DNA from: Nocardioides sp.
GTDB taxonomy: Bacteria > Actinomycetota > Actinomycetes > Propionibacteriales > Nocardioidaceae
Assembly (NCBI GenBank): GCA_025965125.1
Contig: JAOPXM010000148.1
Coordinates: 1 to 43,115 of the forward strand
Direction: 5' to 3'
Length of the DNA stretch: 43,115 nt
In this document: piece by piece, positions 8,031 to 43,115 of the stretch
Layout: every line of letters begins with the position of its first letter
How positions within the stretch are numbered: the stretch's first letter is position 1
The notes under the pieces: generated by a model
What the model saw: the letters and a program-made list of their open reading frames with translations, nothing else
Database searches by the model: none
Told to the model about the DNA's origin: nothing
Made by a program: the position numbers and the translations under genes

Positions 8031-8031
8031 C

Positions 8032-13781: not shown

Positions 13782-13792
13782 GAGGTCCCCTC

Positions 13793-14179
13793 TCATCGGC
13801 CGTGCCCGTGCCTGGAAGCGCGCTTCGGCTGCCAGAACGCGATCTCGCCACCTTGGACCGTCGTGACCACGCTGCGCCACCCGTGTGGGCCTTCGCGTGG
13901 CTCGAGCAGCACGGTGGCGCCGAGGCGGCGGGCCCGGTCGGTGACCTCGCAGATCTGGCGCACCTCGACGTACGGCACCCAGACCGGACGGGGGGTCGCG
14001 CACTCCACGATTCCGCCGCCGATGTCGCCGAGCTCGAGAGCCAGGTAGGACGCGCGACCCGCGCCGACCAGTTCCTCCGGCCAGCCGCAGAGCTCGGCGT
14101 AGAAGCCACGAGCCTCGGCGAGATCCCTGGTGTGCAGCTCCAGGTGCACGACCGAGCCCGCGGACGCCGCGCTACTCAC
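13793..14179 (-). CDS. VOC (glyoxalase/bleomycin-resistance fold) protein
   Basis: 128 residues from GTG 14179, overlapping the upstream stop by eight bases. One long VOC module pair: VVHLELHTRDLAEARGFYAELCGWPEE (strand-helix with the metal-site His and the 'A..FY...G' pattern), then VPYVEVRQICEVTDRARRLGATVLLEPREG and a last strand with GGEIAFWQPK. Such proteins are binding or lyase proteins; many are drug-binding or isomerase-like. The His/Glu ligand set is not complete by eye, so I do not name a reaction. Its operon partners (MFS exporter, ABM-like protein, ECF factor) suggest handling of a toxic small molecule. Confidence 0.85.
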   Translation of the reverse strand: MSSAASAGSVVHLELHTRDLAEARGFYAELCGWPEELVGAGRASYLALELGDIGGGIVECATPRPVWVPYVEVRQICEVTDRARRLGATVLLEPREGPHGWRSVVTTVQGGEIAFWQPKRASRHGHGR

Positions 14180-23900: not shown

Positions 23901-25160
23901 TCAGTCCTGCAGCAGCGCCAGGTCGATGGCGTTGCCCATGGCCTCCATCCCGGCGTCATTGGGGTGGATGTGGTCGCCGGCGTCGTACTCAGCCCTCAGG
24001 GCGGCCGGGTCCGTCGGCGAGCGCATGACGCGGTCGAAGTCGATGACCCCGTCGAAGGCGCCGCTGGTGCGGATCCAGCGGTTGACCTCCTGACGGATGG
24101 CCTCACCCGCGGCGGTGAAGTAGCCATTGCCCCTGTCCGGCAGCAACGTGGCTCCGATCATCCTGACGTCGGCCGCGTGTGCCTCGTTGATCAGGCTCAG
24201 GTAGCCGTTGATGAGGTCCTGGGCCGTGAGGGGCCCGTTGTTCGGGCCGGCGTTGTTGCCGATGTCGTTGATGCCTTCGAGCAGGATCACGTCCGTGACC
24301 CCCGGCTGGCCCAGGGCGTCATGCCTGAACCGCTTGAGAGCACTGATGCCCTGCCACAGGTTGGGCACGTCGGTGAGCACGCGGTTGCCGCCGATGCCCG
24401 CGTCGACCACGCCCAGCCGCTGCGGGCCGGGCTCCGCGGCCAGTCGGCGCGCCAGGTGGTCGGGCCACCGGTGGTAGGTGCCTCGTGACGAGGCGTAGCC
24501 ATCGGTGATCGAGTCGCCGAACGCAACGACGGTGCCCTGCGCCGTGTGGGACTTCAGGTCCAGGCCGGCGAGGTAGTACCAGGAGGTCGTCCTGGTCGCA
24601 AAGCCGGCTGCGTCCTCGTCATCGGTGTGATCGCCCGCGGCGATGAAGGTGGTGTCGAAGGCGTCGGAGTGCCAGGTGGAGGTGCCGGTCGCGGTCGGCA
24701 GGTAGAGACTGACCAGCAGATTCTCCCCGGCGTCGACCGAGATCGGGATGGCATCGCTGACCAGCTCGGCACCAGCCGGGATCGTCACGCTGCCGGCGTG
24801 GTCGAACGTCACGGCTCGGGAGGTACCCGGCACCTCGGCGCCACCGGTGTCCTGCTCGGCGACCTCGACGGATGCCACGGTGAGGGGCGTGTCGCTGAAG
24901 CGGTTGGACAGAGTGATCCGGGGGTCCGATCCGGCGATGCTGCTGTGCACGACCATGCGGATGGTCTGGTTGTCGAAGCTCGGACCGCCGGTCGTCATGC
25001 TCGGCGACCAGGCGGCGATCCGTTGGCTCTGGGCGGGGTGGTTGTCAGGCCGGTTGACCGCGGTTGCCACCGGGACGGGGGCCAGCAGCATTGCCGCCCC
25101 GGCCAACGAGGCGACCAGCGATCGCAAGGCTGCGCGGCGAGTCGTGGGTTGTCTGTTCAT
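23901..25160 (-). CDS. secreted SGNH/GDSL-family esterase
   Basis: 419 residues; AAGGTGA five bases before ATG. Export signal with a twin Arg (TTRRAALRSLVASLAGAAMLLAPV, cut near ATA). The SGNH domain starts with VVAFGDSITDG (nucleophile S217) and goes on with GIGGN, LLEGINDIGNN (blocks with Gly and Asn) and DHIHPN (Asp-His of the catalytic pair). About 170 residues before block I form a beta-rich domain (VVHSSIAGSDPRITLSNRFSDTPLTVASVEVAE). Such enzymes remove acetyl or other acyl groups from plant and algal polysaccharides. It lies 65 bases after GH95 on the same strand, so it should deacylate the substrate of that enzyme. Confidence 0.92.
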   Translation of the reverse strand: MNRQPTTRRAALRSLVASLAGAAMLLAPVPVATAVNRPDNHPAQSQRIAAWSPSMTTGGPSFDNQTIRMVVHSSIAGSDPRITLSNRFSDTPLTVASVEVAEQDTGGAEVPGTSRAVTFDHAGSVTIPAGAELVSDAIPISVDAGENLLVSLYLPTATGTSTWHSDAFDTTFIAAGDHTDDEDAAGFATRTTSWYYLAGLDLKSHTAQGTVVAFGDSITDGYASSRGTYHRWPDHLARRLAAEPGPQRLGVVDAGIGGNRVLTDVPNLWQGISALKRFRHDALGQPGVTDVILLEGINDIGNNAGPNNGPLTAQDLINGYLSLINEAHAADVRMIGATLLPDRGNGYFTAAGEAIRQEVNRWIRTSGAFDGVIDFDRVMRSPTDPAALRAEYDAGDHIHPNDAGMEAMGNAIDLALLQD

Positions 25161-25225
25161 GGGGTCACCTTCTGAGGAATGGGAGGGACGAAGCGAGCCA
25201 CGAGGGCTGGACGATCAGCGGCCGC

Positions 25226-28099
25226 TCAGGCACGTGCGATCTTCCAGAGCTGGCTCGGGTCGCCCGTCGGGGTCTGGATCTCGACGAGGGCACCCCGCTG
25301 GCTCGATGCCCCGGTCACGCCGAGCACCTTGTCGGTGGCGCGGTGCCGGATCAGCGACTGGCCCGGCCCCGCATCCTCGACCCGCCAGTGCTGGCTGGTG
25401 TCACCGTCGAGCGGCCACTGGATGACGTCGGTGCCCTCCGCGGTCTGCCCGTCCGGAAGGTCGAGCACCAGTCCGGACCTGGTCGACTTCACCGTGACGT
25501 AGCCGTCGCCGGCATCGACGAAGTGCCAGGTCTGACTTGTCGAGAGGGCGTAGTCCCATTGGTCGATGTTGGCGCCGGCGTTCGAGCCACCGCCGTAGAT
25601 CTCCATGGCGAGGCCGCTGCGCGCGTTGATGACCATCATGCTCGGCGGCCCCGGCTGCGGGGGCGGGGGAGGCGGGTAGGGGACGCCTTGCGGCGTCAAC
25701 TTCACCGAGCCCCCGGCGCGCAGGCTGACCGTCTGCTTCCAGTCGCCCACGCGTACCTGGGTACGGCGCCCGCCGACGCTGTGCAGGGTGACGCTGGTCG
25801 GACGGCCGTCCTTCCAGTCCATGTCGAGCTTGAAGCCGCCGCGCACGCCCATCCCGCGCACACTGCCGTCCTTCCAGTGCTCGGGCACCGCCGGCATGAG
25901 GTCCACGACGCCCGGCATCGCGTGGACGAGCATCTCCATCATCGCCGCGGGCACGCCGTAGTTGGCGTCGATCTGGAAGACCTGGCCCTGGTAGCCGAAC
26001 GACGGCCCGAACATCATGTCGAAGAGGTTGATCGACGTGCCGTGGCGCACCCCTTCTGAGGGCCGCAGGACGCTCTGCAGCGAGAGGTAGGCACGGCGGG
26101 CGTCCTTCATTCGAGCCCAGCAGGCGGCCCGCCAGGCACAGCCCCAGCCCGGGCTGTCGTAACCGCGCGCCTCCAGCAGCTGGCGCACCCCCTCGACGTA
26201 CTCCGCCGGCTGGTTGTCGAGGCGGATCCGGTCGCCGGGGTACCAGCCGATCAGGGGAGACAGGTGCCGGTGCTGGGCGTCGCCGAGGTTGTCGGGGCTC
26301 ATCCACTCCTCCAGCCAGCCCGTCTTGGGGCTGACCTGGGGCAGGTAGAGCCGGCCCCGCATTTCCGTCGCCTTCGCTGCCAGCTCGCGGTCGCTCCCCA
26401 GGAGCCGCGACGCCTCGGCGAAGTTGCCGAAGAGCGCGTGCACGAGCTCCTGGTCGTAGGTGTTGCCCCTGCCGTCCTGCGGGCCGTGCTCGGGCGACCA
26501 CGCCTTGTCCCCGACCAGGACCGTGCGGGCCTGGTCGCCCTCGCCCACCGTCGTCTCGATCAGCCGGGTCTCCCAGAACTCCACGGCCCCCCGCAGCAGC
26601 GGCATCATCCGCGCCAGGAACTTCCGGTCGAGGGTGAACTCGTAGTGCTGCCACAGCTCGAGGCACAGCCAAGCGCCGCCGGCCGGGTGCCACCACCACC
26701 CGTTGCCGCCGTAGATGTTCGTCGAGATGGCCAGCGTCCACCCCGCGATGCGGTCGGAGGTGTTGCGGAATCGGTTGCGCGGGTCGTTGAACAGCTCCTG
26801 CGTCTGCCGCGACCACTCCGGCAGCTGAGCGAGGCAGTAGTCCAGCATCGGCTCGGCGAACTCCGCCAGCCCGAACCGGTGGGTGGGCCAGTAGTTCATC
26901 TGGATGTTGATGACGGTGTGGTAGTCACTCGACCACGCCGGGTTGTTGCCTTCCAGCCACAGGGCCTGGAGGTTCGTCGGCAGGCTGTCCCGGGAGCCGG
27001 TGATGGTGAGGTAACGGGCGAACTGCAGGTACGTGGCCTCGAGCTCAGGGTCCCGCGGGCCGTCGGGGTCGCCGTAGCTGGCGAGGCGCTCGCCGGTGTC
27101 GAGCGCCCGCTGCTCCCCGCTCGAGCTGCCGAGGTCGAGGTTGAACGAGTCGTAGGCGCGTCGGTAGTCGGCGACGTGCGTGCCGAGGAGCTGGGAGCCG
27201 GACGCGCGCAGTGCCATCCGCAGCTTGTCCCGGGCAATCGCCGAGACGTCCACCTTCGGCTCGCGGTAGCCGATCGAGGCATCGGGGCGGTAGTTGGTGC
27301 CACCGCTGATGACGATGACGACCTCCGTTGCCCCGGCGAAGGTGACCGCCGAACCGGCCATCGAGATCTTGCCGCTCACGGCGGCGGCGCCCGCGGTCGC
27401 GGCGTACTTGAGGCCGTTCCCCAGGTCATCGCTGAGGGTGACGCGGCGCCCGGGACCGTCGGCGGTGAGGATCTCGTCGCGCGTCGGCTCCAGGCTGACG
27501 GAGCCGGTGAGAGTCCCGCTGCGGGACCCGGTCTGGCTGAGCCGGAGCACCAGCACGTCGTCGGGGTGGCTGATGAAGCACTCGTGCCGGTAGCTCACCC
27601 CGGCGAGGGTGTACGTCGTCACGAGCACGCCGTTGCTGAGGTCCAGCGACCGGCGGTAGTCCGCGATCGCATCTGGCGTGTGGCCGGCCAGGCGGACCCG
27701 GGCCTTGGTGAGCAGCTGGAAGCTGCCGAAGTGCTCGCGGTCGTACGGGAACTGCCCGTCGCCGTCGAGCGAGTCGCTGACATCGCCGCTCCACATGGAG
27801 GCGTCCGCGATGAAGAAGGCCTGGCTGTCCGGGCCGCCGCCGACCATCGCGCCGAGCCGACCATTGCCGACCGGGAGCCCCTCCTCGATCATCTTCGCTT
27901 CTGCGGCGGGGGTTCGGTACCACATCTTCAGAGCCTGGGAGTCGGGCAGGAGCGTCGACTCCCCGGCCCGCGCTACCGCAGGGTGCGGCTCGAAGACCGG
28001 TACCGCTGCCACGAGTCCCATCAGGCCGGCCGCCTGAAGGATTCGCCGACGGTTCAGTGGGGTTGTTGCGAGACCAGGTTCGCCCGAGAGGCCGGCCAT
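25226..28099 (-). CDS. exported GH95-family glycosidase with a ricin-type lectin tail
   Basis: 957 residues; AAGGAG seven bases before ATG. Tat-like signal NRRRILQAAGLMGLVAAVPV (16-35). GH95 core to about 800: SPEHG with E537 (general acid), QIDANYG with D711, and INIQMNYWP with N398. Most GH95 enzymes read N-I-N here; this one reads V396-I-N, so the first Asn of the pair is missing. The segment 825-957 is a ricin-type (CBM13) trefoil with QxW repeats (QTWHF, QHWRV, QLWKI). GH95 members release L-fucose (alpha-1,2) or L-galactose by inversion. The fucose pathway beside it points to L-fucose, but this subgroup is not certain to be a fucosidase. It forms one unit with the SGNH gene. Confidence 0.9.
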   Translation of the reverse strand: MAGLSGEPGLATTPLNRRRILQAAGLMGLVAAVPVFEPHPAVARAGESTLLPDSQALKMWYRTPAAEAKMIEEGLPVGNGRLGAMVGGGPDSQAFFIADASMWSGDVSDSLDGDGQFPYDREHFGSFQLLTKARVRLAGHTPDAIADYRRSLDLSNGVLVTTYTLAGVSYRHECFISHPDDVLVLRLSQTGSRSGTLTGSVSLEPTRDEILTADGPGRRVTLSDDLGNGLKYAATAGAAAVSGKISMAGSAVTFAGATEVVIVISGGTNYRPDASIGYREPKVDVSAIARDKLRMALRASGSQLLGTHVADYRRAYDSFNLDLGSSSGEQRALDTGERLASYGDPDGPRDPELEATYLQFARYLTITGSRDSLPTNLQALWLEGNNPAWSSDYHTVINIQMNYWPTHRFGLAEFAEPMLDYCLAQLPEWSRQTQELFNDPRNRFRNTSDRIAGWTLAISTNIYGGNGWWWHPAGGAWLCLELWQHYEFTLDRKFLARMMPLLRGAVEFWETRLIETTVGEGDQARTVLVGDKAWSPEHGPQDGRGNTYDQELVHALFGNFAEASRLLGSDRELAAKATEMRGRLYLPQVSPKTGWLEEWMSPDNLGDAQHRHLSPLIGWYPGDRIRLDNQPAEYVEGVRQLLEARGYDSPGWGCAWRAACWARMKDARRAYLSLQSVLRPSEGVRHGTSINLFDMMFGPSFGYQGQVFQIDANYGVPAAMMEMLVHAMPGVVDLMPAVPEHWKDGSVRGMGVRGGFKLDMDWKDGRPTSVTLHSVGGRRTQVRVGDWKQTVSLRAGGSVKLTPQGVPYPPPPPPQPGPPSMMVINARSGLAMEIYGGGSNAGANIDQWDYALSTSQTWHFVDAGDGYVTVKSTRSGLVLDLPDGQTAEGTDVIQWPLDGDTSQHWRVEDAGPGQSLIRHRATDKVLGVTGASSQRGALVEIQTPTGDPSQLWKIARA

Positions 28100-28181
28100 G
28101 AGGTTTCTCCTTCTACAGGGGGGTGGGGTGTTACCGCCCGCCAATGTAGGTGAACCTCGTCACATAACCTAGATCCTATAT

Positions 28182-28190
28182 CGTATTACG
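28182..28190. promoter_or_regulatory. CGTATTACG site upstream of GH95
   Basis: A 4-1-4 palindrome about 83 bases before the GH95 ATG. With its flanks (TCGTATTACGG) it fits the FadR-family form TNGTNNNACNA at all but the last base. A nearly identical CGTATGACG stands in the promoter of the binding-protein operon at 29875. Both lie beside GntR/FCD genes, so both may be targets of one of these regulators. Confidence 0.5.
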
Positions 28191-28229
28191 GACACGACCG
28201 CTGAAAGTCTCGGGATTCTTCGATCGCCG

Positions 28230-28949
28230 TCACTGGGCGGCGTCCTTCAGCCGCTCGTACGACGCCTCGATGTGGGCCAGCATGGCCGCGGACGCCCGCT
28301 CGGGATCCTGCGCCGCGATCGCCTCAGCGACGCCGCGGTGCTCATCTATCGCCGGTGACGCGAAGGCGCGACCGTAGAACAGCCGGAACAGGTGGAGGTG
28401 GCAGTGGGTTCGCGCGAACGCGTTCTGCATCACCTGGTTGCCCGCCTGCTCCAGCACCATCGAGTGGAACCGCTGGTCGTGCGCGGTGAGGGTCTTGTAG
28501 CTCTCGTAGTCCGAGCCGCCCGGCAGGTCGGCCCCGGTGCGGAGCTCCTCCCGGAGTCGGCTCCGTCCGGCCTCGTCCGCGGTCGCCGCCGCTCGGGCGG
28601 CCGCCCAGGGCTCGAGCAGCCGGCGGAACTCATAGAGGTCCTCGAACTCCGATCGCGTCAGCAGTGGCGTGGTGAAGTACCCCCGCAGGGGCTCCTTGCG
28701 CACCAGGCTCGCTTCCTCGAGTCGGGCGAGGGCCTCTCGAACGGGGGTCGGCGACACATTGAGCTGCCGGGCGAGCTGGTCGATGTTGATCCTGGTGTGC
28801 GGCGGGATCGCGTGATCCATGATCAGCGCGGTCATCGACTCGTGGACGTCATCGGTGAGGCTGCGCCGCGACAGGGCCGACACCAACAGGCCGCTGCCGT
28901 CTCCGGGCGGGGCGCCGACCACGGGGGTGCCGCCTGGCTCGATGGTCAT
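28230..28949 (-). CDS. GntR family regulator with FCD domain (1)
   Basis: 239 residues from ATG 28949. Winged helix at about 35-95 (LIMDHAIPPHTRINIDQLARQLNVSPTPVREALARLEEASLVRK), then FCD helical effector domain at about 105-230 (FEDLYEFRRLLEPWAAARAAA, AHDQRFHSMVLEQAGNQ, HRGVAEAIAAQDPERASAAMLAHIE) with the His residues that hold a metal in the FCD pocket. FCD members sense small carboxylates such as uronates, fuconate or lactate. It sits directly before GH95 and probably controls it. Confidence 0.92.
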   Translation of the reverse strand: MTIEPGGTPVVGAPPGDGSGLLVSALSRRSLTDDVHESMTALIMDHAIPPHTRINIDQLARQLNVSPTPVREALARLEEASLVRKEPLRGYFTTPLLTRSEFEDLYEFRRLLEPWAAARAAATADEAGRSRLREELRTGADLPGGSDYESYKTLTAHDQRFHSMVLEQAGNQVMQNAFARTHCHLHLFRLFYGRAFASPAIDEHRGVAEAIAAQDPERASAAMLAHIEASYERLKDAAQ

Positions 28950-29089
28950 GGGCCCTCCATGTCGTCGCACTCCGTGCCGGACTCGCCAGTAGCCAGTCGG
29001 CGAGAGACTCTGCCGAGCGGCCACCCGGGGCCAACATCGAGTATGCAAGATCATAGATCGAACGCCGGCGTCGGGCGATGTGCGTCGGG

Positions 29090-29836
29090 TCAGGACTGCT
29101 GACCCTGCTCGTGCCGCGTCGGCCGGCGGCGATGCCACGAGCCGATGATGTGGCGGTTCATGGCGTCGGCCGCCCCGGCGTCGTCACCGGCGAGAATGGC
29201 GTCGCGGATCTCTCGGTGGGCGACGTTCGAGAGCTCCAGCTCGGCGCTCGACGGGTCGCCCACGTAGCGCATGCTCCGGTACGCCTCCTCGGTGAGGGTG
29301 TGGATGATTGCGCGGCCCAGGCGGTTGCCCGACGCGGCGAGGATGGAGTCGTGGAACGCGACGTCGGCCGCCAGATAGCGCTGCGGGTTGTCGAGCTCCT
29401 TCTCGAGCGTGGCCATCCGCTCGCAGATCAGGGTCCGTTCCTGCTCGGTGGCGCGCTCGGCGGCCTGGGCGGCCATCTGTGACTCGAGCGACCGGCGGAC
29501 GTCGACCAGGTCCTCGAGGATGGACAGCTCCGCGTCGTGGCGGACGACCGCGCTCAGGACCACGGGGGCCAACAGGTCCCAGTCGGGCAGGGGTCGTACG
29601 GTGGTGCCTTGCCCCTGCTGCACCTTCACCAGCCGCATCGTCTCGAGCGCCTTCACCGCCTCGCGGACGACCGTGCGGCTCACGCCGAAGGTGTCGCACA
29701 GGGCAGGTTCGGTCGGCAACAGGGTGTCGGCGCGAAAGTCTCCGCCGACGACCCGGTCCACCAGTTCCTCGACGACCGCGACCGCAAGGCGGGCGGGCCG
29801 GCGCGGCCAGTGGCGAAGTTCCGCTGGCTCGGTCAT
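29090..29836 (-). CDS. GntR family regulator with FCD domain (2)
   Basis: 248 residues. Winged helix at about 15-80 (ELVDRVVGGDFRADTLLPTEPALCDTFGVSRTVVREAVKALETMRLV), and FCD at about 105-235 (LVDVRRSLESQMAAQAAERA, DVAFHDSILAASGNRLGR, HREIRDAILAGDDAGAADAMNRHI). It differs from the first FCD gene in both domains, so it is not a recent copy. It is divergent from the sugar-binding lipoprotein gene and shares its 100-base promoter region, so it most likely represses the ABC operon. Confidence 0.93.
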   Translation of the reverse strand: MTEPAELRHWPRRPARLAVAVVEELVDRVVGGDFRADTLLPTEPALCDTFGVSRTVVREAVKALETMRLVKVQQGQGTTVRPLPDWDLLAPVVLSAVVRHDAELSILEDLVDVRRSLESQMAAQAAERATEQERTLICERMATLEKELDNPQRYLAADVAFHDSILAASGNRLGRAIIHTLTEEAYRSMRYVGDPSSAELELSNVAHREIRDAILAGDDAGAADAMNRHIIGSWHRRRPTRHEQGQQS

Positions 29837-29863
29837 GCCCGCATCTTAAGCAGACCGGAGGCG

Positions 29864-29892
29864 TTGACAGAAGACGTATGACGAATTACGTT
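29864..29892 (+). promoter_or_regulatory. promoter and operator of the sugar ABC operon
   Basis: TTGACA (29864-29869), 17 bases, then TACGTT (29887-29892). The spacer holds CGTATGACG (29875-29883), which fits TNGTNNNACNA at all but the first base, and an ACGTA...TACGT inverted repeat (29874-29891). A GntR protein bound here would cover both hexamers. The binding-protein ATG is at 29938. Confidence 0.65.
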
Positions 29893-29937
29893 CGACCTTG
29901 CGGTCACAGTGACCGTCGTCACGTCCAAGGAGTCCCC

Positions 29938-30993
29938 ATGAACTTCCGGCAACTTCGCAGCGGCGCGCTCGTCGCGGTCACCGTCGCCTCGCTGGCCCTG
30001 GCCGCCGGCTGCAGCAAGAACACCACCGCCAGCGGAAACGACGCCACGAGCGCCCTGACGGCCGACCAGGTGAAGATCGCCCTGGTGCCGGGTGGACCGC
30101 ACCCCTACTTCCAGCCCTGGAAGGCCGCGGGCCAGCAGGCCAAGCAGGAGTTCGGTCTCGGCGACGTGACCTTCAACGAGACCTCCGGCTGGGACCAGAC
30201 CAAGCAGAACGACGTGCTGAAGTCCCTCGCCGCGCAGGGATACAACGCGTTCGGCATCTTCGGGGTGTCGCCCGACAACATCAACTCCACCTTCCAGGAC
30301 CTCACCCGCCAGGGCTTCCAGGTCGCGTCGATCGCCTCCTGCCCGGCCGGGACCACCGACGACGCGTCGTTCTGCCTGGCGACCGACGTCGAAGCCGCGG
30401 CGTACAAGGCTGCGAAGGCCGCCATCGCGGCCATGGGCGGCCAGGGCAACCTCGTGCACCTCACGGGCAACAAGGTCGACTCGAACACCCAGCGCCGGAT
30501 GGACGGCGTGCAGAAGGCGGTCGACGAGACGAACGGCAAGGTGAAGCTGGTCCAGACCATCACCGACATCGACATCGACCTGCAGACGGCACAGCGCTCG
30601 GTCGCGGACCTGCTGGCTGCCCGCGGCACGGACATCCAGGGCATCGTGAACACCGCCTACAACCCGGCCGTGGCGTCGGCCGCAGCGGTGAAGCAGAGCG
30701 GCCTGCCGATCAAAGTGGTGGCCATCGACGACGACCCCACCATCCTGGCCGGGATCAAGGACGGGTCCGTGGCCGCGACCGTCGCGCAGAACCCCGTCGG
30801 GCAGGCGACCGTCGGGTCCTACGCGCTGATGAAGCTCGCCGAGGGGTGCACGATGACGACCCCCGGTGTCACCATCGACTCCGGTTCCTTCGTCGTCTCC
30901 AGTGACAACGTGGACTCGTACGACCAGGAGCGCCAGGCGGAGACGACCAAGCTGCGGCAGGACTTCGACGACAAGTACCTGAGCTGCTCGTGA
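29938..30993 (+). CDS. sugar-binding lipoprotein of an ABC importer
   Basis: 351 residues from ATG 29938, with AAGGAG seven bases before. Lipoprotein signal: basic start, hydrophobic core (ALVAVTVASLALAAG) and lipobox LAAGC, so it is anchored in the outer face of the membrane. The rest is a type I periplasmic-binding (RbsB-like) fold: VKIALVPGGPHPYFQPWKAA, AAQGYNAFGIFGVSPDNINS, and IKVVAIDDDPTILAGIKDG. Family members bind pentoses, hexoses, deoxyhexoses or autoinducer-like sugars. Its operon (permeases, ATPase, mutarotase, lactonase) points to L-fucose or a related 6-deoxy sugar or sugar acid. Confidence 0.92.
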   Translation: MNFRQLRSGALVAVTVASLALAAGCSKNTTASGNDATSALTADQVKIALVPGGPHPYFQPWKAAGQQAKQEFGLGDVTFNETSGWDQTKQNDVLKSLAAQGYNAFGIFGVSPDNINSTFQDLTRQGFQVASIASCPAGTTDDASFCLATDVEAAAYKAAKAAIAAMGGQGNLVHLTGNKVDSNTQRRMDGVQKAVDETNGKVKLVQTITDIDIDLQTAQRSVADLLAARGTDIQGIVNTAYNPAVASAAAVKQSGLPIKVVAIDDDPTILAGIKDGSVAATVAQNPVGQATVGSYALMKLAEGCTMTTPGVTIDSGSFVVSSDNVDSYDQERQAETTKLRQDFDDKYLSCS

Positions 30994-32081: not shown

Positions 32082-32082
32082 C

Positions 32083-35656: not shown

Positions 35657-35665
35657 GGAGACGGC

Positions 35666-35989
35666 ATGCAGCGGTTCGGATCCGTGGTCCGGCTCCGGCC
35701 CGAGATGGAGCAGGAGTACCTGCGTCTGCACCGGGCGGTGTGGCCCGACGTGCTGCGCCAGATCCAGGCGAGCGGCATCCGCAACTACACGATCTTCCTG
35801 CGTGACGGCGTGCTCTTCTCCTATTACGAGTACGCCGGGGATGACCACGAAGCCGACCTGGCGGCGATGGCCGCGGACCCGGCGACCCGGGACTGGTGGC
35901 GGCTCACCGATCCCTGTCAGCAGCCCGTCGAGGGCGCGGCCCCCGGGCAGCTCTGGGCGCCGATGGCCGAGGTGTTCCACACCGACTGA
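35666..35989 (+). CDS. rhaM: L-rhamnose mutarotase-type protein (6-deoxysugar anomerase)
   Basis: 107 residues with Y18, H22 and the W77-W78 pair at the positions reported for E. coli RhaM (Tyr18, His22, Trp76 region). This family interconverts alpha and beta anomers of L-rhamnose. Some members also take L-fucose, and the fucose genes around it make that possible here. A FucU-type mutarotase, the usual fucose enzyme, is not seen. It follows the ATPase gene by nine bases. Confidence 0.88.
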   Translation: MQRFGSVVRLRPEMEQEYLRLHRAVWPDVLRQIQASGIRNYTIFLRDGVLFSYYEYAGDDHEADLAAMAADPATRDWWRLTDPCQQPVEGAAPGQLWAPMAEVFHTD

Positions 35990-36033
35990 TGACGAGCTCG
36001 CGCGCGGAGGAGCGCGGAGAAGGGAGAGCCCTG

Positions 36034-36879
36034 ATGAGGATTGACGCTCACCACCACGTCTGGGACCTGGCCGTTCGGGACCAGGAGTGGACGCGCGGCA
36101 TCCCGGTGCTGCGACGCTCCTACCTGTTCGACGACCTCCGCCCGGAGCTCGTCGCCGGTGGGGTCCACGGCACCATCGTCGTCCAGACGGTGACGGCGCC
36201 CGAGGAGACGCCCGAACTGCTGAGCCTGGCCCAGCACCACCCGGAGATCCTCGGCGTCGTCGGGTGGGTGGACCTCACCGACCCGGACGTCGCGGGGCGC
36301 CTGACCGCCCTACGTTCCGGGGAGGGGGGCGAGTGGCTGGTCGGCGTGCGGCACCAGGTCCAGGGCGAGTCCGACCCGGAGTGGCTGCTCCGTCCCGACG
36401 TGCTTCGTGGCCTGGCGGCAGTGGCGCGGGCCGGGCTGGTCTACGAGCTGCTGGTCACCCATGACCAGCTGCCGCAGGCGGTCGCCGTCGTCCACCGGGT
36501 CCCCGGCCTGCGCTGGGTCCTGGACCACGCCGGCAAACCGCCGATCGCCGAGGCCACGCTCGAGCCGTGGCGTACCCACGTCTCGGCGCTGGCCGAGTCG
36601 ACCGATGTCGCCTGCAAGCTGTCGGGACTGCTCACCGAGGCCGGTGCCGACTGGGACGTCGACGACCTGCGTCCGTACGCCGAGCACGTGCTGGCGGCCT
36701 TCGGTGCGGACCGGGTCATGGCGGGCTCGGATTGGCCGGTGTGCCTGACGCACGCGTCCTATGCCCGTGCGCGCGAAGTGCAGGACGACCTGCTGAGCGG
36801 GCTGTCGGCCGCGGACACGGCGGCGGTCACGGGTGGCACCGCCGAACGCTGGTACGGGCTCAGCTCCCGGCCTCGGTGA
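36034..36879 (+). CDS. COG3618 amidohydrolase, likely L-fuconolactonase
   Basis: 281 residues; AGGGAG eight bases before ATG. TIM-barrel metal hydrolase: MRIDAHHHVW (H6 and H8, metal ligands), GVRHQVQGE, WVLDHAGKPP (third His), and MAGSDWPVC (catalytic Asp). COG3618 members hydrolyse fucono-, galactaro- or 2-pyrone-lactones. In the oxidative fucose pathway this step makes L-fuconate. It is the last gene of the rightward operon and overlaps the facing hydrolase gene by 20 bases at its end. Confidence 0.9.
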   Translation: MRIDAHHHVWDLAVRDQEWTRGIPVLRRSYLFDDLRPELVAGGVHGTIVVQTVTAPEETPELLSLAQHHPEILGVVGWVDLTDPDVAGRLTALRSGEGGEWLVGVRHQVQGESDPEWLLRPDVLRGLAAVARAGLVYELLVTHDQLPQAVAVVHRVPGLRWVLDHAGKPPIAEATLEPWRTHVSALAESTDVACKLSGLLTEAGADWDVDDLRPYAEHVLAAFGADRVMAGSDWPVCLTHASYARAREVQDDLLSGLSAADTAAVTGGTAERWYGLSSRPR

Positions 36880-37672
36880 GTCTCGCGGCGAAGGCCCGCT
36901 CGAAGAAGTCGACGACCGGGGCGACCCCGTCCGGTTCGACCCCTTCCAGGCCGTGGGGGTGGTGCGCGCATCCGGGCTTCACGATCTTGGCGACCGGTCC
37001 GCCGAGCTCCGCGTACATCCGGTAGAGCACCTCGGAGTTCTCCGCCGGGGGCGCGTCGAGATCGGCGTCGCCCCACACCAGCAGCAGCGGGATGCCGGCC
37101 TCCGCCGGCCGGGTGAGCTTTCCGATCGGGCTCGCCGCGACCAGCGCGGCGTCGTCGCGGGGGTCGATGTCCCAGATCTGCAGCATCTCCTCCCATTCCT
37201 TCACGCCGCCCGGGCCGACGCCCATGCCCTGCGCCCGTCCACCGGGCCAGCTGCGTAGGTCGGCCGCGACGTTGTCCAGGTAGATTGCCAGCGTGAACTC
37301 GGGGTGCAAGGCCGCCCACGACAACGCGTACAGGCCGCCACGGCTCAACCCGATGAGTCCGGCTCGGGGTGCGAAGCCCCATTCGGTGGTCAGGCGCTCG
37401 TGCGTCGCCTCCCACGCCTGCATGGCGACGGGGTCGCCGTACCGGTCACGGACATCGACGTACACCAGGTGCCAGCCGTCGTCGATCAGGGCCCGGTCCG
37501 CCGCGTCGAAGGGGCCGAGGAACTCGCCGCGCCAGATCCATGGCAGGCCGATGTCGGTGCGCCGCGGCCGCAACGGCGCGACCACGGTGGTGACGACCCC
37601 GTCGATCACAAACGTGTGGGTGGAGTAGGTGTCGGCGTACGTGTGGCCGGGGTAGGTGTCGGCGTCGGTCAC
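36860..37672 (-). CDS. alpha/beta-hydrolase, possible sugar esterase
   Basis: 270 residues from GTG 37672 (GTGA overlap with the regulator stop). The nucleophile elbow is GLSRGGLYA; the Asp and His follow in LLLVWGDADLD and GCAHHPHGLEG. No signal peptide, so it is cytosolic. The N-terminus has an odd repeat TYPGHTYADTYSTHT. It could take acetyl groups off imported sugar or sugar acid; this is inference from place. Its 3' end overlaps the lactonase gene by 20 bases, a tail-to-tail overlap in which both proteins end inside the other gene. Confidence 0.8.
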   Translation of the reverse strand: MTDADTYPGHTYADTYSTHTFVIDGVVTTVVAPLRPRRTDIGLPWIWRGEFLGPFDAADRALIDDGWHLVYVDVRDRYGDPVAMQAWEATHERLTTEWGFAPRAGLIGLSRGGLYALSWAALHPEFTLAIYLDNVAADLRSWPGGRAQGMGVGPGGVKEWEEMLQIWDIDPRDDAALVAASPIGKLTRPAEAGIPLLLVWGDADLDAPPAENSEVLYRMYAELGGPVAKIVKPGCAHHPHGLEGVEPDGVAPVVDFFERAFAARLTEAGS

Positions 37673-38424
37673 TGCGGATGGCTCCTGCTGTCGGTGGAGG
37701 TTTCGGTGGGGTTGTCGATCGGGGTGTCGATCGGGATCGTTGTCGCGCCCTCTCCGAGGCTGATCCTCAACCAGTCCTCGACTCCGGCGATGTGGGCGAT
37801 CGCCCAGGCCCGGGCCACGTCGGGCCGACCCTGCTGGATGGCGGTGGCCAGGGCGCGGTGCTCGCGCCGGGTTCGCTCCAGCGCGTCCGCCTGGGTGATG
37901 CCGCGCCAGATGCGGGCCCGCTGGGTGCGCCCGCCGACTCCGTCGATGAGCGAGCACAGCACCGGGTTGCCCGACGCCACGGCGATCAGGTGGTGGAACT
38001 CGATGTCATTGGCGACGATGGCCTCGATGCTCAGGTCATCGCTGAGAGCCTCGACGTTGGCGTCGAGTGCGGCTGCCTGGTCCGCGGTCAGCACCCGAGC
38101 GGCCATCTCCGCTGCGGCCGGCTCAAGAGCACGGCGTACCTCGAACAGGTGCAGCACGCTGGCGTCCTGGTGGAAGTCGATGACGAAGCTCATCGTCTCC
38201 AGCAGTACCTCGGGCTCCAGGCTGGTGACGAAGGTGCCGTCGCCACGTCGGACGTCGAGGATGCGCATCATGGACAGGCCGCGCACCGCCTCGCGCAACG
38301 ACCCCCTCGACAACCCCAGCGACTCGGCCAGGTCGGCTTCTCGCGGCAGCCGGTCGCCCGGCTTGAGCCGCCCGTCGAGGATCATCTCCTTGATCTGCTG
38401 GATGGCCTCGTCCGTCAACGCCAT
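37669..38424 (-). CDS. GntR family regulator with FCD domain (3)
   Basis: 251 residues from ATG 38424 after AGGAG. Winged helix at about 5-65 (IKEMILDGRLKPGDRLPREADLAESLGLSRGSLREAVRGLSMMRIL), FCD at about 90-215 (FEVRRALEPAAAEMAARVL, IEFHHLIAVASGNPVL, EHRALATAIQQGRPDVARAWAIAHI). The start is closest to the FadR/LldR-like type; effectors in this group are often uronates or lactate. It is part of the FAH-SDR-regulator-hydrolase leftward operon. The last 35 residues are Thr/Asp/Pro-rich and low in complexity. Confidence 0.92.
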   Translation of the reverse strand: MALTDEAIQQIKEMILDGRLKPGDRLPREADLAESLGLSRGSLREAVRGLSMMRILDVRRGDGTFVTSLEPEVLLETMSFVIDFHQDASVLHLFEVRRALEPAAAEMAARVLTADQAAALDANVEALSDDLSIEAIVANDIEFHHLIAVASGNPVLCSLIDGVGGRTQRARIWRGITQADALERTRREHRALATAIQQGRPDVARAWAIAHIAGVEDWLRISLGEGATTIPIDTPIDNPTETSTDSRSHPQ

Positions 38425-38440
38425 GGGCTGTCTCCTGTCC

Positions 38441-39196
38441 TCAGGGGCGAGGCCGCAGGCGCAGCCCGTCCATCCCACCGTCGACGGCGAGAACCGTCCC
38501 CGTAGTAGATCCCGATCGGGGGCTGGCCAGGTAGGCGACGGCGCCGGCAACCTCGTCGGCCGAGACCAGCCGGCCCTGCGGCTGGCGAGCGGCCAGGGCC
38601 GCGCGCTCCGCCTCGGGGTCGGCCGCCGACGCGAGCAGCCGCTCCACCCAGGGTGTCGCCGCGGTGCCGGGATTGACACAGTTGACCCGGATGCCCTCTG
38701 GCAGATGGTCAGCGGCCATGGCCCTGGTCAGCGCCATCACCGCCCCTTTGCTCGCGGAGTACAGCGCGCGCTGCGGCAGTCCCGCGGTGGCCGCGATGGA
38801 ACAGGTGTTCACGATGGCAGCCGACGGCGAGCGCCGCAGGTGGGGGAGCGCGGCCCGGCTCACCCGGACCATGCCGAGCACGTTGATGTCGAGGACCCGA
38901 TGCCACTCGTCGTCGCCGTTGTCCTCGATCGTGCCCTGGGCGCCGATCCCGGCGTTGTTGACGACGATGTCGAGTCGCCCGAAGGCCCCGATCACGGTCT
39001 CGACGCCCCGGCGCACACTCTCGTCGTCCGCCACGTCAGCGGTCACGCCCAGGGCGCCCTCGGGGGCCCCGTCGGGACGCAGGTCCAGCGCCGCCACCCG
39101 GGCGCCGGCCGCTTGCAGTTCGCGCACGACGGCAGCACCGATGCCCGAGGCACCTCCGGTGACGAGGGCGGTGAGCCCATCGAACTCCTGGGCCAT
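38441..39196 (-). CDS. SDR oxidoreductase, likely 2-keto-3-deoxy-L-fuconate dehydrogenase
   Basis: 251 residues. Start ATG 39196 follows AAGGGGG with good spacing and overlaps the upstream stop as TGATG; a GTG three bases before is possible. TGGASGIG (13-20) binds NAD(P); NNAG (80-83); S133, Y146 and K150 form the catalytic triad (YSASK). In the L-fucose route this oxidises 2-keto-3-deoxy-L-fuconate at C4; the neighbours on both sides are the next step and the dehydratase, which supports this. L-fucose dehydrogenase is a second option, but an aldo/keto reductase for that step is at 41501. Confidence 0.9.
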   Translation of the reverse strand: MAQEFDGLTALVTGGASGIGAAVVRELQAAGARVAALDLRPDGAPEGALGVTADVADDESVRRGVETVIGAFGRLDIVVNNAGIGAQGTIEDNGDDEWHRVLDINVLGMVRVSRAALPHLRRSPSAAIVNTCSIAATAGLPQRALYSASKGAVMALTRAMAADHLPEGIRVNCVNPGTAATPWVERLLASAADPEAERAALAARQPQGRLVSADEVAGAVAYLASPRSGSTTGTVLAVDGGMDGLRLRPRP

Positions 39197-40056
39197 CACT
39201 TGCCCCCTTCCCAGGCGCGCATCCGCTGACGCTGCCGGCCGAGACCGTCGATCTCGACCTCGACGACGTCGTCGGGGGCGAGGTACGGGAAGCGGCCGGA
39301 CAGCGCGACGCCCTGGGGGGTGCCGGTGAGGATCACGTCGCCCGGGTCCAGCACGGCGTACTGGCTCAGGTGGTGGACGATCTCGCCCACCCCGAAGATC
39401 ATGTCCGCGGAGCTGGAGTTCTGGCGAACCTCGCCGTTCACCCAGCTGCGCAGCCCCAGCTGGTCAGGTGCGACCTCGTCGGCGGTGACGAGCCAGGGGC
39501 CCAGGGGGGTGAACCCCGCGGCGATCTTGCCTTTGCTCCACTGTCCGCCCGAGACCTCGAGCTGGAAGGCGCGCTCGGACAGGTCGTTGGCGAGGACGAA
39601 ACCTCCGACGTGCGCGAGGCCCTCCTCGGGGGAGTCGAGGTAGCTCGCGCGGGTGCCGATGACGATGCCGAGCTCGACCTCCCAATCGGTCTTCTCGCTG
39701 CCGCGAGGGATGGTGACCTCGTCGTCGGGTCCCGCCACGCTGTTGGGCACCTTGAGGAACACGACCGGCTGCGCGGGGGGCTCGGCGCCGGACTCGGCCG
39801 CGTGGGCGGCGTAGTTCATGCCGATGCAGTAGATGGCGCCCGGCCGGGCGACCGGCGCTCCGATGCGCAGCTCGTCCGCTCCGGGCAGGCGCTCCAGCCG
39901 ACCGGCGGCCAGGGCGGCGCGCACGCGGCCCGGGCCGTCGGACTCCCAGAAGGCCGCGTCGAGGTCGGCAGCCACCCCGTCCAGCGTGTGGGCGACATCC
40001 TCGACGAGCACCACGGCACGTTCCTCGCCGGGTGGCCCCAGCCGCGCGAATTTCAT
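39196..40056 (-). CDS. FAH-family hydrolase, likely 2,4-diketo-3-deoxy-L-fuconate hydrolase
   Basis: 286 residues from ATG 40056. Metal ligands E126, E128 (DWEVELG) and D158 (ANDLSER), with GMNYAAHA upstream and GQWSKGKIAAGFTPLGPW downstream, the usual fold order of the fumarylacetoacetate hydrolase family. In the oxidative fucose pathway it splits the diketo acid into pyruvate and L-lactate. Only a TATAGG-like -10 lies seven bases from the ATG and there is just a weak GGGGTAGGG site, so the message may be leaderless. First gene of the leftward operon. Confidence 0.9.
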   Translation of the reverse strand: MKFARLGPPGEERAVVLVEDVAHTLDGVAADLDAAFWESDGPGRVRAALAAGRLERLPGADELRIGAPVARPGAIYCIGMNYAAHAAESGAEPPAQPVVFLKVPNSVAGPDDEVTIPRGSEKTDWEVELGIVIGTRASYLDSPEEGLAHVGGFVLANDLSERAFQLEVSGGQWSKGKIAAGFTPLGPWLVTADEVAPDQLGLRSWVNGEVRQNSSSADMIFGVGEIVHHLSQYAVLDPGDVILTGTPQGVALSGRFPYLAPDDVVEVEIDGLGRQRQRMRAWEGGK

Positions 40057-40220
40057 CCCTACCCCTATACGTAGATCCAATGTCTGGCCCTGCTGTTTGC
40101 GGCGCTGGAGCGCCACAGGCGTCTGTATGATTCCATCTTGACGCCCGAAACATCAGATGTCTAGGGTGTGAGAGTCATCTCCTCTCCGCCCTCCCAGATC
40201 GTTCCCGCCAAGGAGTTCTC
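40057..40220. promoter_or_regulatory. divergent promoter region of the fucose-acid operons
   Basis: Rightward: TTGACG (40138-40143), 18 bases, TAGGGT (40162-40167), about 55 bases before the FucD GTG; the ribosome site is AAGGAG. In the spacer stands ACATC-A-GATGT (40150-40160), a perfect 5-1-5 palindrome and likely operator. TGTATGATT (40124-40132) is like the CGTATNACG sites. GGCGC-tgga-GCGCC (40101-40114) is a small hairpin. Leftward: TATAGG-like -10 (on the other strand at 40063-40068) close to the FAH start. Confidence 0.6.
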
Positions 40221-41504
40221 GTGCCCCACGTCGTCTCGATGGAGATCACGGACGTCCGGTTCCCGACCTCCCAGTTGCTGGACGGGTCCGACGCCATGAA
40301 TCCCGATCCGGACTACTCCGCGGCGTACGTGCTGATCACCACCGACGACCCCGACGGACTCGTCGGCGCCGCCCTGGTGTTCACCATCGGCCGCGGCAAC
40401 GACGTGCAGTGCGCCGCCATCGAGGCCCTGGGCTCCTACATCGTCGGCCGCCCGGTCGACGAGCTGCTCGACGACATGGGAGGCGTGTGGCGGACCCTGG
40501 TCCACGACTCGCAGCTGCGGTGGCTCGGGCCGGAGAAGGGCGTCATGCACATGGCGGTCGGTGCGGTCGTGAACGCCCTGTGGGACCTCAAGGCCAAGCG
40601 CGCGGGTCTCCCGTTGTGGGACCTGCTCTCGCAGATGTCGCCGGAGGAGCTGGTCGACCTGGTCGACTTCCGCTACCTCGAGGACGCGCTCACCCGTCCG
40701 GAGGCGCTGGCGCTGCTGCGCGCGGCCGAGCCGGGGCGCGCAAGCCGCCGACGCGAGCTGCTGTCGGGCGGCTACCCGGCGTACACCACCACGCCCGGCT
40801 GGCTGGGCTACGACGACGCCAAGCTGGAGCGGTTGTGCCGTGAAGCGGTCGACGAGGGATATGCCCAGATCAAGCTCAAGGTCGGGCTCGACCTCGCCGA
40901 CGACGTCCGCAGGCTCGGAATCGCCCGACGAGCGGTCGGGCCCGATATCGCGATCGCGATCGATGCCAACCAGCGCTGGGAGGTGGCCGAGGCCGTCCGG
41001 TGGGTCGGCGAACTGGCTGAGTTCGACCTCGCCTGGGTGGAGGAGCCCACCAACCCCGACGACCTGCTGGCCCACGCCGCGATCCGGAAGGCGATCTCGC
41101 CGATCCCGGTCGCGACCGGCGAGCACATGGCCAACCGGGTGCTGGCCAAGCAGTTCCTGCAGGCCGAGGCCCTCGACGTCCTGCAGATCGACGCCACCCG
41201 GGTCGCCGGCGTCAACGAGAACCTGGCCATCCTGCTGCTCGCGGCCCGCTTCGGAGTGCGGGTGTGTCCCCACGCCGGGGGCGTGGGGCTGTGCGAGATG
41301 GTGCAGCACCTGTCGATGTTCGACTACGTGGCCGTCTCCGGCACCGCCGAGGGGCGGATGATCGAGTTCGTGGACCACCTGCACGAGCACTTCGTCACCC
41401 CGGCGGTCGTGAGCCGCGGCCACTACGTGGCGCCGACCGCTCCCGGCTCGGGGGCCGAGATCCTGCCCCTGTCCGTCAGCGAGTACCGGTGGGCCGGTCG
41501 GTGA
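40221..41504 (+). CDS. fucD: L-fuconate dehydratase (enolase superfamily)
   Basis: 427 residues from GTG 40221 with AAGGAG six bases before. FucD-specific opening: [20 protein letters not shown], then YSAAYV and FTIGRGNDV. Catalytic set at the same residue numbers as I recall for the Xanthomonas campestris enzyme: K218-x-K220, metal ligands D248 (IDANQRW), E274 (WVEEPTNP), E301 (TGEHMAN), D324 and H351 (CPHAGGVG). It removes water from L-fuconate to give 2-keto-3-deoxy-L-fuconate; family enzymes also take L-galactonate and D-arabinonate. It stands opposite the FAH/SDR operon, which carries the next two steps. Confidence 0.95.
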
Positions 41505-42445
41505 CCGCCGCCCTTCCCCCGGTGATGGGCCTGGGTGGCGCCTCACTGGGCAACCTCGGCACCGCGATGAGCGACGCCGAGGCCGCCGACCTCCTGGCGA
41601 CCGCCTGGGACGCCGGGGTCCGGCACTTCGACACCGCGCCCCACTACGGCCTCGGACTTTCCGAGCGGCGACTCGGCCGCTTCCTGGCCACGAAGCCTCG
41701 CGACGAGTTCGTGGTCTCGACCAAGGTAGGCAGGCTGCTGCGGCCCGTTGCGGGGTGGCAGGGGGAGCAGGACACCGAAGGCTTCGTGGTCCCCGGCGAC
41801 CTCCGGCGCGAGTGGGACTTCACCCCCGACGGCATTCGCACCAGCCTCGAGGAGTCCTGCGACAGGCTGGGGCTGGACGCGGTGGACATCGTCTACCTGC
41901 ACGACCCGGAGCGCTGGGACCTGGCCGCGGCGGTCACCTCTGGGTGGCCCGCGCTCGTCGGCCTGCGTGCGGCAGGAACCGTGGGCGCCATCGGGGTGGG
42001 CAGCATGGACACCGAGGCACTGCTCGCCGTGGCCAGGACCGGCGACGCCGACCTGCTGATGGTGGCGGGGCGCTACACGCTGCTCGACCAGTCGGTCCTG
42101 CCTGAGGTCGTCGACGTTTGCTCGAGGACCGGCACGCGGATGGTCGCCGCAGCGGTCTTCAACAGCGGGTTGCTCGCCGACACCACCAGCCCGACGACGT
42201 ACGACTACGGGGAGGTTCCAGCGGCGAAGCTCGAGACGGCGCGCCGGATCGCGGCGGTCTGCGCGGCTCACGGGGTGGACCTGCCAACCGCCGCCTTGCA
42301 CTACCCCCTGCGGGACGAAATGGTGCAGAGCGTGATCTTCGGCGCGGCACAGCCCTCCCAGGTACGGCAGAACGTGGACCGCCTCACCCGGCGGATCCCG
42401 CCCGGCCTGTGGTCTGACCTTGCCGAGCAGGGCCTGGTGCCGTAG
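41501..42445 (+). CDS. aldo/keto reductase, likely L-fucose (D-threo-aldose) 1-dehydrogenase
   Basis: 314 residues from GTG, overlapping the FucD stop (GTGA). AKR tetrad: D44 and Y49 ([11 protein letters not shown]), K75 (STKVG), H134 (YLHDPE). [13 protein letters not shown] and the [21 protein letters not shown] insert are like D-threo-aldose 1-dehydrogenases of the fucose pathway, which oxidise L-fucose to L-fuconolactone with NAD(P). Coupled translation with FucD supports that role; a different AKR substrate is possible. Confidence 0.9.
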
Positions 42446-42447
42446 CC

Positions 42448-43115
42448 GTGCGCGTCGCGCTGATGGTGACGTGCGTGAACGATGCAATGTTCCCGGAGAC
42501 GGGAAAGGCCGTGGTCACGCTGCTGCGCCGGCTCGGGGTCGAGGTCGAGTTCCCGGCCGCCCAGACCTGCTGCGCGCAGCCGATGATCAACACCGGCTAC
42601 CTCGACGAGGCGGTGCCGGTGGTGCGCACGTTCGTGGACGCCTTCGCGGCGTACGACGCGATCGTCACGCCGTCGGGCTCCTGCGCGGGCGCCGTGCGCC
42701 ACCAGCACGGAATCGTGGCGCGCCGCTCAGGTGATGCCCACCTCGCCGAGGCCGTGGACCGGACCTCGCCGCGGGTCTACGAGCTGACTGAGTTCCTGGT
42801 CGACGTGCTGGGGGTGGTCGACGTGGGCGCGTACTTCCCGCACCGGGTGACGTACCACCCGACCTGTCATTCCCTGCGGATGCTGGGGGTGGGGGATCGG
42901 CCGCGGCGGTTGCTGCAGGCGGTTCGGGGCCTGAGGTTGGTGGAGCTACCGGGGGCCGCAGAGTGTTGCGGGTTCGGGGGGACCTTCGCGGTGAAGAACG
43001 CGGACACCTCGGTGGCGATGGGTGCCGACAAGGCCCGTCACGTGCGGGAGACCGGTGCCGAGGTCCTGGTCGCGGGCGACAACTCGTGCCTGATGCACGT
43101 CGGGGGCATGCTCTC
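42448..43115 (+). CDS. lutA: LutA-like (Fe-S)-binding subunit of L-lactate oxidation, cut by the window end
   Basis: 222 residues are present from GTG 42448; the end is missing, about 20 residues by family length. Two CCG domains: C9, C41-C42 (TCCAQPMINTGY), C79 and then C140 (HPTCHSLRMLGVGD), C173-C174 (ECCGFGGTF), C214. LutA works with LutB and LutC to turn L-lactate into pyruvate. L-lactate is what the fucose route makes, so the placement makes sense. LutB and LutC would be expected just beyond the window. Confidence 0.92.
   Translation, partial: MRVALMVTCVNDAMFPETGKAVVTLLRRLGVEVEFPAAQTCCAQPMINTGYLDEAVPVVRTFVDAFAAYDAIVTPSGSCAGAVRHQHGIVARRSGDAHLAEAVDRTSPRVYELTEFLVDVLGVVDVGAYFPHRVTYHPTCHSLRMLGVGDRPRRLLQAVRGLRLVELPGAAECCGFGGTFAVKNADTSVAMGADKARHVRETGAEVLVAGDNSCLMHVGGML

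Follow-up and report, generated by a model that had tools for sequence, protein, structure and literature searches.

An L-fucose island of Nocardioides with ENO2, a second enolase-superfamily enzyme recurring beside fucose genes

Oxidation of L-fucose through non-phosphorylated intermediates has been described as "route 3" (FucM-A-B-C-F-G) for Xanthomonas, Herbaspirillum and Acidovorax, and in the available part of that source L-2-keto-3-deoxyrhamnonate (L-KDR) and L-2-keto-3-deoxyfuconate (L-KDF) give the same 2,4-diketo acid (PMC11199699); therefore, more than one deoxy sugar could enter the lower half of the route. In Bifidobacterium kashiwanohense, GH95, GH29, mutarotase, lactonase, SDR, FucD and ABC importer genes lie in one locus, as far as the available text describes it (PMC6817895), and several COG4948 enzymes were proposed, in the accessible portion of another report, for parallel non-phosphorylative oxidation of fucose and rhamnose in SAR202 (PMC10444878). 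The island discussed here lies at 23901–43115 of a 43,115-nucleotide stretch from Nocardioides sp. (the window), which is the whole of contig JAOPXM010000148.1 (C138) in a genome of 3.98 Mb, 257 contigs and 92% completeness (GCA_025965125.1). Its pathway is the published route 3, ordinary in kind and extended by lactate oxidation. The unusual part is ENO2, a second enolase-superfamily enzyme of the mandelate racemase subgroup, which recurs beside fucose genes in other actinobacteria. Judging from sequence and gene context, we consider it probable that the island is a route-3 L-fucose locus in which ENO2 would act, within the same system, as an additional aldonate dehydratase that is not orthologous to FucD.

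ENO2 and its association with FucD

ENO2 is by sequence not an orthologue of FucD, the L-fuconate dehydratase of the island: it scores 98.6 bits to the solved L-fuconate dehydratase 2hne versus 225 to 2og9 and 222 to 5xd7, and is about 32% identical to FucD in a profile comparison. The curated TarD model gives 294 bits, under its cut-off of 500, and a profile of the ENO2 family scores 292 bits with 2og9, 287 with 5xd7 and 286 with 2pp0. In the family alignment, composed of the window copy and 25 others that are 59–79% identical to it, K167, K169, D198, N200, E224, E250, D273 and H300 are invariant in 26/26 sequences. These include the KxK motif, three metal ligands and His-Asp dyad that form the signature of the mandelate racemase subgroup, roles which we take these residues to have. 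K169 aligns with a site where 2pp0 has Lys and 2pp3 has Ala, and H300 with one where 5xd7 has His and 5xd9 has Asn; 2pp3 and 5xd9 are presumably catalytic mutants at these positions. ENO2 thus keeps, as read from its sequence, an intact acid/base machinery. Moreover, two loop motifs that align with each other between ENO2 and FucD were found: TIGxG occurs in 26/26 ENO2, 20/20 FucD and 0/8 other MR_MLE proteins, and GW[LIF] in 26/26, 20/20 and 1/8, the eight comparison proteins being those at hand (one cut by a locus end) and no random draw.

Presence of ENO2 goes together with that of FucD. In a sample of 293 genomes from the order of the host, Propionibacteriales, FucD is carried by 51 of the 52 ENO2 genomes (the exception being G241) against a background of 81/293, and in a sample of 394 genomes from 137 genera of the class it is carried by all 10, against 98/394. 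Both samples together hold 61 distinct ENO2 genomes, 60 of them with FucD, and only the genome of the window is in both lists. ENO2 is spread over 7 of the 137 genera in the class sample and 8 genera in the order sample.

Gene order points in the same direction. In the window ENO2 sits inside the importer operon, between the binding protein and the permeases, and five other genomes (G187, G138, G577, G437 and G510) have ENO2 and FucD on one strand. In the first three, ENO2 comes after the binding protein and before two permeases and the ATPase, and pathway genes of the same strand including FucD follow, while in G437 (1.2 Mb) and G510 (1.5 Mb) FucD precedes the binding protein-ENO2-permeases-ATPase series, and mutarotase and lactonase are divergent. 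These 1.2 and 1.5 Mb genomes (loci L151 and L152) keep FucD, ENO2 and a fucose-type importer, and in the smaller one a KDPG/KHG-type aldolase, a PfkB kinase and an FMN-dependent dehydrogenase are also encoded close by. The Kribbella loci that were read place an FCD1 regulator, mostly with FAH, opposite either the series binding protein-ENO2-permeases-ATPase-lactonase or ENO2, the latter accompanied by lactonase in some cases; in Kribbella kalugense (G081), the only one checked for this, FucD-SDR-AKR lies elsewhere than ENO2. In four of five loci of genus g73 (L154, L155, L156 and L160) and both Leifsonia loci, an AKR of its own and an FCD regulator come after ENO2, GH29 is present in all six, and a lactonase match in all except L155.

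Gene counts were based on 25 chosen ENO2 loci, compared with 76 loci that have FucD only. The ENO2 loci include a lactonase match in 15, GH29 in 9 and GH95 in 2. A further count covered ORFs (open reading frames) of 280–999 amino acids within 7 kb of ENO2 that were not otherwise assigned; our home-made ORF caller yielded 115 such proteins, with at least one from 24 of the 25 loci, and PF01120 accounts for 11 of them. Statements below on the 25 commonest neighbour families refer to this count, in which 60 rarer families lie outside that set.

Pathway enzymes and the lactate end

Gene families of the island were assigned by Pfam profile matches, and comparison with solved structures then bears on the individual enzymes. 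FucD scores 625 bits to 2hne over residues 3–424 of 427, and the mutarotase 121.6 bits to 7byu, an "L-fucose mutarotase", versus 35.6 to the L-rhamnose type YiiL. The lactonase has 4dlf as its sole solved match (152 bits) and reaches 227 bits on its best NCBIfam model, NF052480 (cut-off 400). The nearest solved relative of the FAH hydrolase is 8gsr, an L-2,4-diketo-3-deoxyrhamnonate hydrolase (200 bits), with 242 bits on NF053535, its best NCBIfam model (cut-off 500), and that of GH95 is 7znz, a GH95 alpha-1,2-fucosidase (351 bits). The names given to these five proteins in an earlier preliminary description of the window are borne out by their solved relatives, and with them the proposal of an oxidative L-fucose route to pyruvate and L-lactate followed by lactate oxidation; for SDR and AKR the structure matches are not decisive. 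The SDR scores 173 bits to 4dqx, above the L-KDF dehydrogenase entries 8y4j and 8y46 (about 128 bits), and is placed with L-KDF 4-dehydrogenases by family and gene order rather than by best structure match, and the search for solved relatives of the AKR gave none at E 1e-30. L-fucose isomerase (PF02952) was not found in the 92%-complete genome, using a profile that matched 3 of 14 genomes as a control, and neither L-fuculokinase nor fuculose-phosphate aldolase was found among the island genes read, the rest of the genome not having been searched for either.

The core of this set is widespread. Among 80 named FucD loci, 79 of them actinobacterial going by their titles and one from Rudaea (L087), the neighbours include AKR in 70, SDR in 64, lactonase in 63, FAH in 60 and an FCD3-type regulator in 59. 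The preliminary description had regarded a full extracellular-to-pyruvate set as notable in an actinobacterium; this view is not supported, because the FucD core is common in actinobacteria and the Bifidobacterium fum locus had already been published, at least in the part of the source available (PMC6817895).

From the genes, families, conserved residues, gene order and co-occurrence observed here, we infer the substrates, the order of steps in the host and the role of ENO2. GH95 would free L-fucose, with the SGNH esterase perhaps removing acyl groups, and the ABC importer would take the sugar up. The FucM-type mutarotase, AKR dehydrogenase and lactonase would then yield L-fuconate, to be dehydrated by FucD, and SDR and FAH hydrolase would lead on to pyruvate and L-lactate, the latter oxidized to pyruvate by LutABC. 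In ENO2, a lysine of the KxK motif and the His/Asp dyad would remove the proton from C2 of a fuconate-like acid that FucD handles poorly and bring about loss of the oxygen at C3, with the product entering the shared SDR/FAH/Lut end. Candidate acids may be L-fuconate, an epimer of it, L-galactonate, L-rhamnonate or a C3-substituted fuconate.

The contig stops within LutA, and the preliminary description had proposed a search for lutB and lutC just past position 43115, counting their absence as refuting. Both follow: the last 127 nucleotides of C138 exactly match one other site in the genome, the end of contig C166, where, read from the overlap, the remainder of LutA is followed by LutB, a LUD-domain LutC and an IclR regulator. 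Such an overlap is what two adjacent contigs of an assembly graph would show. LutB on C166 scores 431 bits to TIGR00273, just under the cut-off of 444.8, and the adjacency of lutA, lutB and lutC that a LutABC system calls for is present across the C138–C166 joint. A further LUD-domain gene lies at the start of another contig of the same genome (G000:C199:128-670), and the end of C199 has no overlap to that of C138. Similar arrangements were seen in other genomes: FucD-LutA-LutB-LutC within the FucD cluster of G577, Lut genes a few genes downstream of FucD in G028 and on the SDR-FAH side of the cluster in G163, and LutA following FucD at a contig end in G138. LutA is also present in 2 of the 25 ENO2 loci (L132 and L153).

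Elsewhere, FMN_dh lies within about 3.5 kb of ENO2 in 3 of the 25 loci, namely L148 (G104), L151 (G437) and L030 from Rhodoglobus, compared with 1 of the 76 FucD-only loci, and in L136 it is 7.9 kb away from ENO2. An FMN-dependent dehydrogenase near ENO2 fits the same need for lactate oxidation, its family being that of L-lactate dehydrogenase; the family also includes other 2-hydroxyacid oxidases. Taken together, this suggests that the oxidative fucose route has gained a lactate oxidizer on more than one occasion in actinobacteria, with LutABC in some of them and perhaps an FMN-dependent dehydrogenase in others. LutABC beside the fucose set is, in itself, a small addition to a known pathway.

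Putative operators and gene content of the island

The three FCD regulators of the window probably read different operators and perhaps respond to different signals, to judge from the motifs in the intergenic regions. Between FAH and FucD, ACATC-N-GATGT (ACATCAGATGT in the window) is present in 37 of 41 such regions, the window included, and its exact copy at 40150 is the only one in the genome. When ACATCNGATGT is searched in the window alone with one mismatch allowed, the single occurrence is not above chance, as 48 of 100 shuffles also reach 1, and the case for this putative operator stands on the orthologous regions and the sole exact genome copy. CGTATKACG occurs twice in the window, upstream of GH95 (CGTATTACG) and of the binding protein (CGTATGACG), where a mean of 0.28 is expected and 3 of 100 shuffles reach 2; the latter site is kept in two of three near relatives read (L132 and L153) and differs in L131. 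A third motif, the palindrome TCCTATAGGA, precedes the ENO2 operon in 11 of 35 regions, comprising 10/10 of Kribbella (L133–L135 and L137–L143) and L152, and is perhaps a local FCD operator; part of it, ATCCTATA, lies in the GH95 promoter. One common operator for all promoters was looked for and not found; the FAH-FucD, binding-protein/GH95 and Kribbella ENO2 regions carry different motifs. In G138 and G577, FucD is on the strand of the importer and no operator split is seen.

The island genes are collected in the table below. All of the families listed by the preliminary description (GH95, SGNH, importer, mutarotase, lactonase, AKR, FucD, SDR, FAH, LutA and three FCD regulators) are present by Pfam, and two genes, the second MR_MLE gene at 30990–32081 and the ORF at 36863–37690, had been overlooked in it. 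Outside the island, the window holds at 1018–10810 a BTAD regulator, a JmjC/cupin protein, several glycosyltransferase-like ORFs and a P450-like ORF, which have no obvious tie to the fucose genes, and at 12759–14003 (minus strand) an ECF-type sigma factor fused to a SnoaL-like domain.

Table. Genes and putative regulatory sites of the L-fucose island (positions in the window)
Feature	Position	Strand	Basis and remarks
SGNH/GDSL esterase	23901–25160	-	PF13472, 1.5e-27; N-terminus resembles an export signal (by eye); no NCBIfam family matched
GH95 alpha-L-fucosidase with ricin-type lectin domain (RicinB)	25226–28144	-	PF22124, 3.9e-112
ATCCTATA, part of the TCCTATAGGA palindrome	28173–28180		GH95 promoter; only copy in the window
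CGTATTACG, CGTATKACG site	28182–28190		upstream of GH95
FCD1, GntR/FCD regulator	28230–29138	-	PF07729, PF00392; true start probably internal to the ORF
FCD2, GntR/FCD regulator	29090–29836	-	PF07729, PF00392; divergent from the importer operon
CGTATGACG, CGTATKACG site, putative operator	29875–29883		upstream of the binding protein
Sugar-binding protein of the ABC importer	29938–30993	+	PF13407 (Peripla_BP_4), 1.8e-39 in ORF 29308–30993; ATG start
ENO2, second enolase-superfamily enzyme (mandelate racemase subgroup)	30990–32081	+	PF13378, 1.5e-66
ABC permease 1	32083–33150	+	PF02653 (BPD_transp_2)
ABC permease 2	33147–34133	+	PF02653 (BPD_transp_2), matched in a longer ORF
ABC ATPase, two ABC domains	34130–35656	+	PF00005 (ABC_tran), 2 stretches
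Mutarotase, L-fucose type (FucM), RhaM fold	35657–35989	+	PF05336, 2.9e-30
COG3618-type L-fucono-1,5-lactonase	35986–36879	+	PF04909 (Amidohydro_2)
ORF between lactonase and FCD3, perhaps an alpha/beta hydrolase and esterase of the same island	36863–37690	-	GLSRGG nucleophile-elbow-like motif (by eye); no NCBIfam match; no Pfam or PDB match as the longer ORF 36860–37957
FCD3, GntR/FCD regulator	37669–38430	-	PF07729, PF00392; start estimated from the domain match
SDR, L-KDF 4-dehydrogenase (FucF) by context	38441–39199	-	PF13561
FAH-type 2,4-diketo-3-deoxy-fuconate/rhamnonate hydrolase (FucG/LRA6)	39196–40116	-	PF01557 (FAA_hydrolase)
ACATCAGATGT, putative FCD3 operator	40150–40160		between FAH and FucD
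FucD, L-fuconate dehydratase (MR_MLE)	40221–41504	+	625 bits to 2hne
AKR, L-fucose 1-dehydrogenase by context	41504–42445	+	PF00248 (Aldo_ket_red), 2e-49
LutA, cut by contig end	42448–43115	+	PF02754 (CCG domain)

Role of ENO2 and comparison with described systems

Several observations weigh against the assignment of ENO2 to a route-3 fucose system that ends in lactate oxidation. The best structural matches of ENO2 are TarD-like and anhydrogalactonate cycloisomerase structures and not FucD, and in the window ENO2 and FucD stand under different putative operators. The hypergeometric probabilities of the ENO2-FucD co-occurrence (6e-7 by genomes and 3.5e-5 by genera in the class sample, 1.6e-34 in the order sample) are uncorrected for kinship, and Kribbella supplies 37 of the 52 ENO2 genomes in the order sample. 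Four of the 25 ENO2 loci (L027, L030, L072 and L083) entered via FucD and are biased towards it, four others (L136, L145, L146 and L149) have no fucose gene, and L148 displays only a weak FCD match and FMN_dh. FucD-only loci also have GH29 (19/76) and GH95 (4/76), so a fucosidase near ENO2 indicates a fucose setting and no special bond. In addition, the Lut genes of the FucD cluster are a local feature: all eight FucD regions of genus members in the order sample were read, and four of them (the window, G028, G138 and G163) have Lut genes, which are found in none of the four FucD genomes from other genera of the family in the regions read, while a LutA-like match, at 35% identity, occurs in one of the 80 named FucD loci.

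Other roles for ENO2 have to be considered. It could be a redundant second L-fuconate dehydratase, retained by chance or for flux, and the loop motifs common to ENO2 and FucD would suit such a role, as would the case of Kribbella kalugense, where FAH and lactonase accompany ENO2 and SDR and AKR accompany FucD elsewhere, as if in one pathway. Nonetheless, we hold this to be unlikely, since both genes are retained in the 1.2 and 1.5 Mb genomes, where plain redundancy is not to be expected, and just one of the 61 ENO2 genomes is without FucD, which does not suggest interchangeability. Rather improbable, in our opinion, is an L-rhamnonate dehydratase of a joined fucose/rhamnose system, in which one hydrolase and one lactate oxidizer would serve two sugars, the difference between fucose and rhamnose at C4 being lost at the SDR step where the same diketo acid is reached. 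The shared product of L-KDR and L-KDF, the closeness of the hydrolase to 8gsr and a weak match of the binding protein to RhaS (33.9 bits, cut-off 342.25) would agree with it. However, ENO2 reaches 95 bits on the L-rhamnonate dehydratase model (cut-off 393), the 25 commonest neighbour families include alpha-L-fucosidase but no rhamnosidase, and the island has one SDR (other SDRs in the genome were not searched), whereas the C4 epimers need opposite stereoselectivity, according to the available part of PMC11199699. An L-rhamnose reading of the importer operon was set aside because the mutarotase encoded with ENO2 is of the L-fucose type by the bit scores given above.

Highly improbable, finally, is a 3,6-anhydro-L-galactonate cycloisomerase that would give the island a red-algal side function. 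Its structure 5xd7 is the second-best solved relative of ENO2, and a weak GH16 domain (33 bits) lies at 11245–12420 on the plus strand of the window, but with the family profile the TarD-like 2og9 and 2pp0 score about equally, and the Leifsonia and g73 loci carry fucosidases instead. The agar/anhydrogalactose reading was set aside because the 25 commonest neighbour families include none of agarases.

The assignment of ENO2 as a second aldonate dehydratase of the fucose system, which we prefer, leaves room for a substrate other than plain L-fuconate. By analogy with the cycloisomerase, which opens a C3 ether, ENO2 might for example be a lyase that acts on a fuconate substituted at C3 and splits off the O-linked group there, FucD and ENO2 then feeding one SDR-FAH-lactate end; we put this forward as a tentative possibility. 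If this is true, ENO2 would permit the use of methylated or 3-linked fucose residues. In any case, fucose loci repeatedly pair two different enolase-superfamily enzymes, which marks out a conserved, unassigned enzyme family with a short list of candidate substrates.

Among described systems, the available parts of a paper on acI genomes (PMC5301498) and of one on rhamnose regulons (PMC3870299) contain no fucose-related word and no "lut" word, respectively. The Bifidobacterium fum locus resembles the island in bringing together GH95, mutarotase, lactonase, SDR, FucD and an ABC importer; it differs by its LacI-type regulator and by an aldolase step towards 1,2-propanediol, where the island ends with a hydrolase, and neither FAH hydrolase nor LutABC nor a second enolase-superfamily gene appears in its gene table, in the available part of the paper (PMC6817895). 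Several enolase-superfamily enzymes are tied to sugar-acid oxidation in SAR202 as well, yet strain JH545 has 80 COG4948 genes and no fucosidase families in the portion of the text available (PMC10444878), whereas the island has two enolase-superfamily genes in one fucose locus. TarD/GalrD and 3,6-anhydro-L-galactonate cycloisomerase, the nearest solved relatives of ENO2, have the same subgroup catalytic residues, and ENO2 is set apart from 2og9, 2pp0 and 5xd7 by its TIGxG and GWL motifs, not seen in the alignments of those three. With route 3 the island shares the enzyme families, as far as the available text describes them (PMC11199699), and its mutarotase, lactonase, dehydratase and hydrolase have the nearest solved relatives expected from that route. 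It has an AKR instead of the SDR-type FucA that is discussed there from Burkholderia (PMC11199699), and it adds to route 3 LutABC and ENO2, together with GH95 and a CUT2-type importer within the same island.

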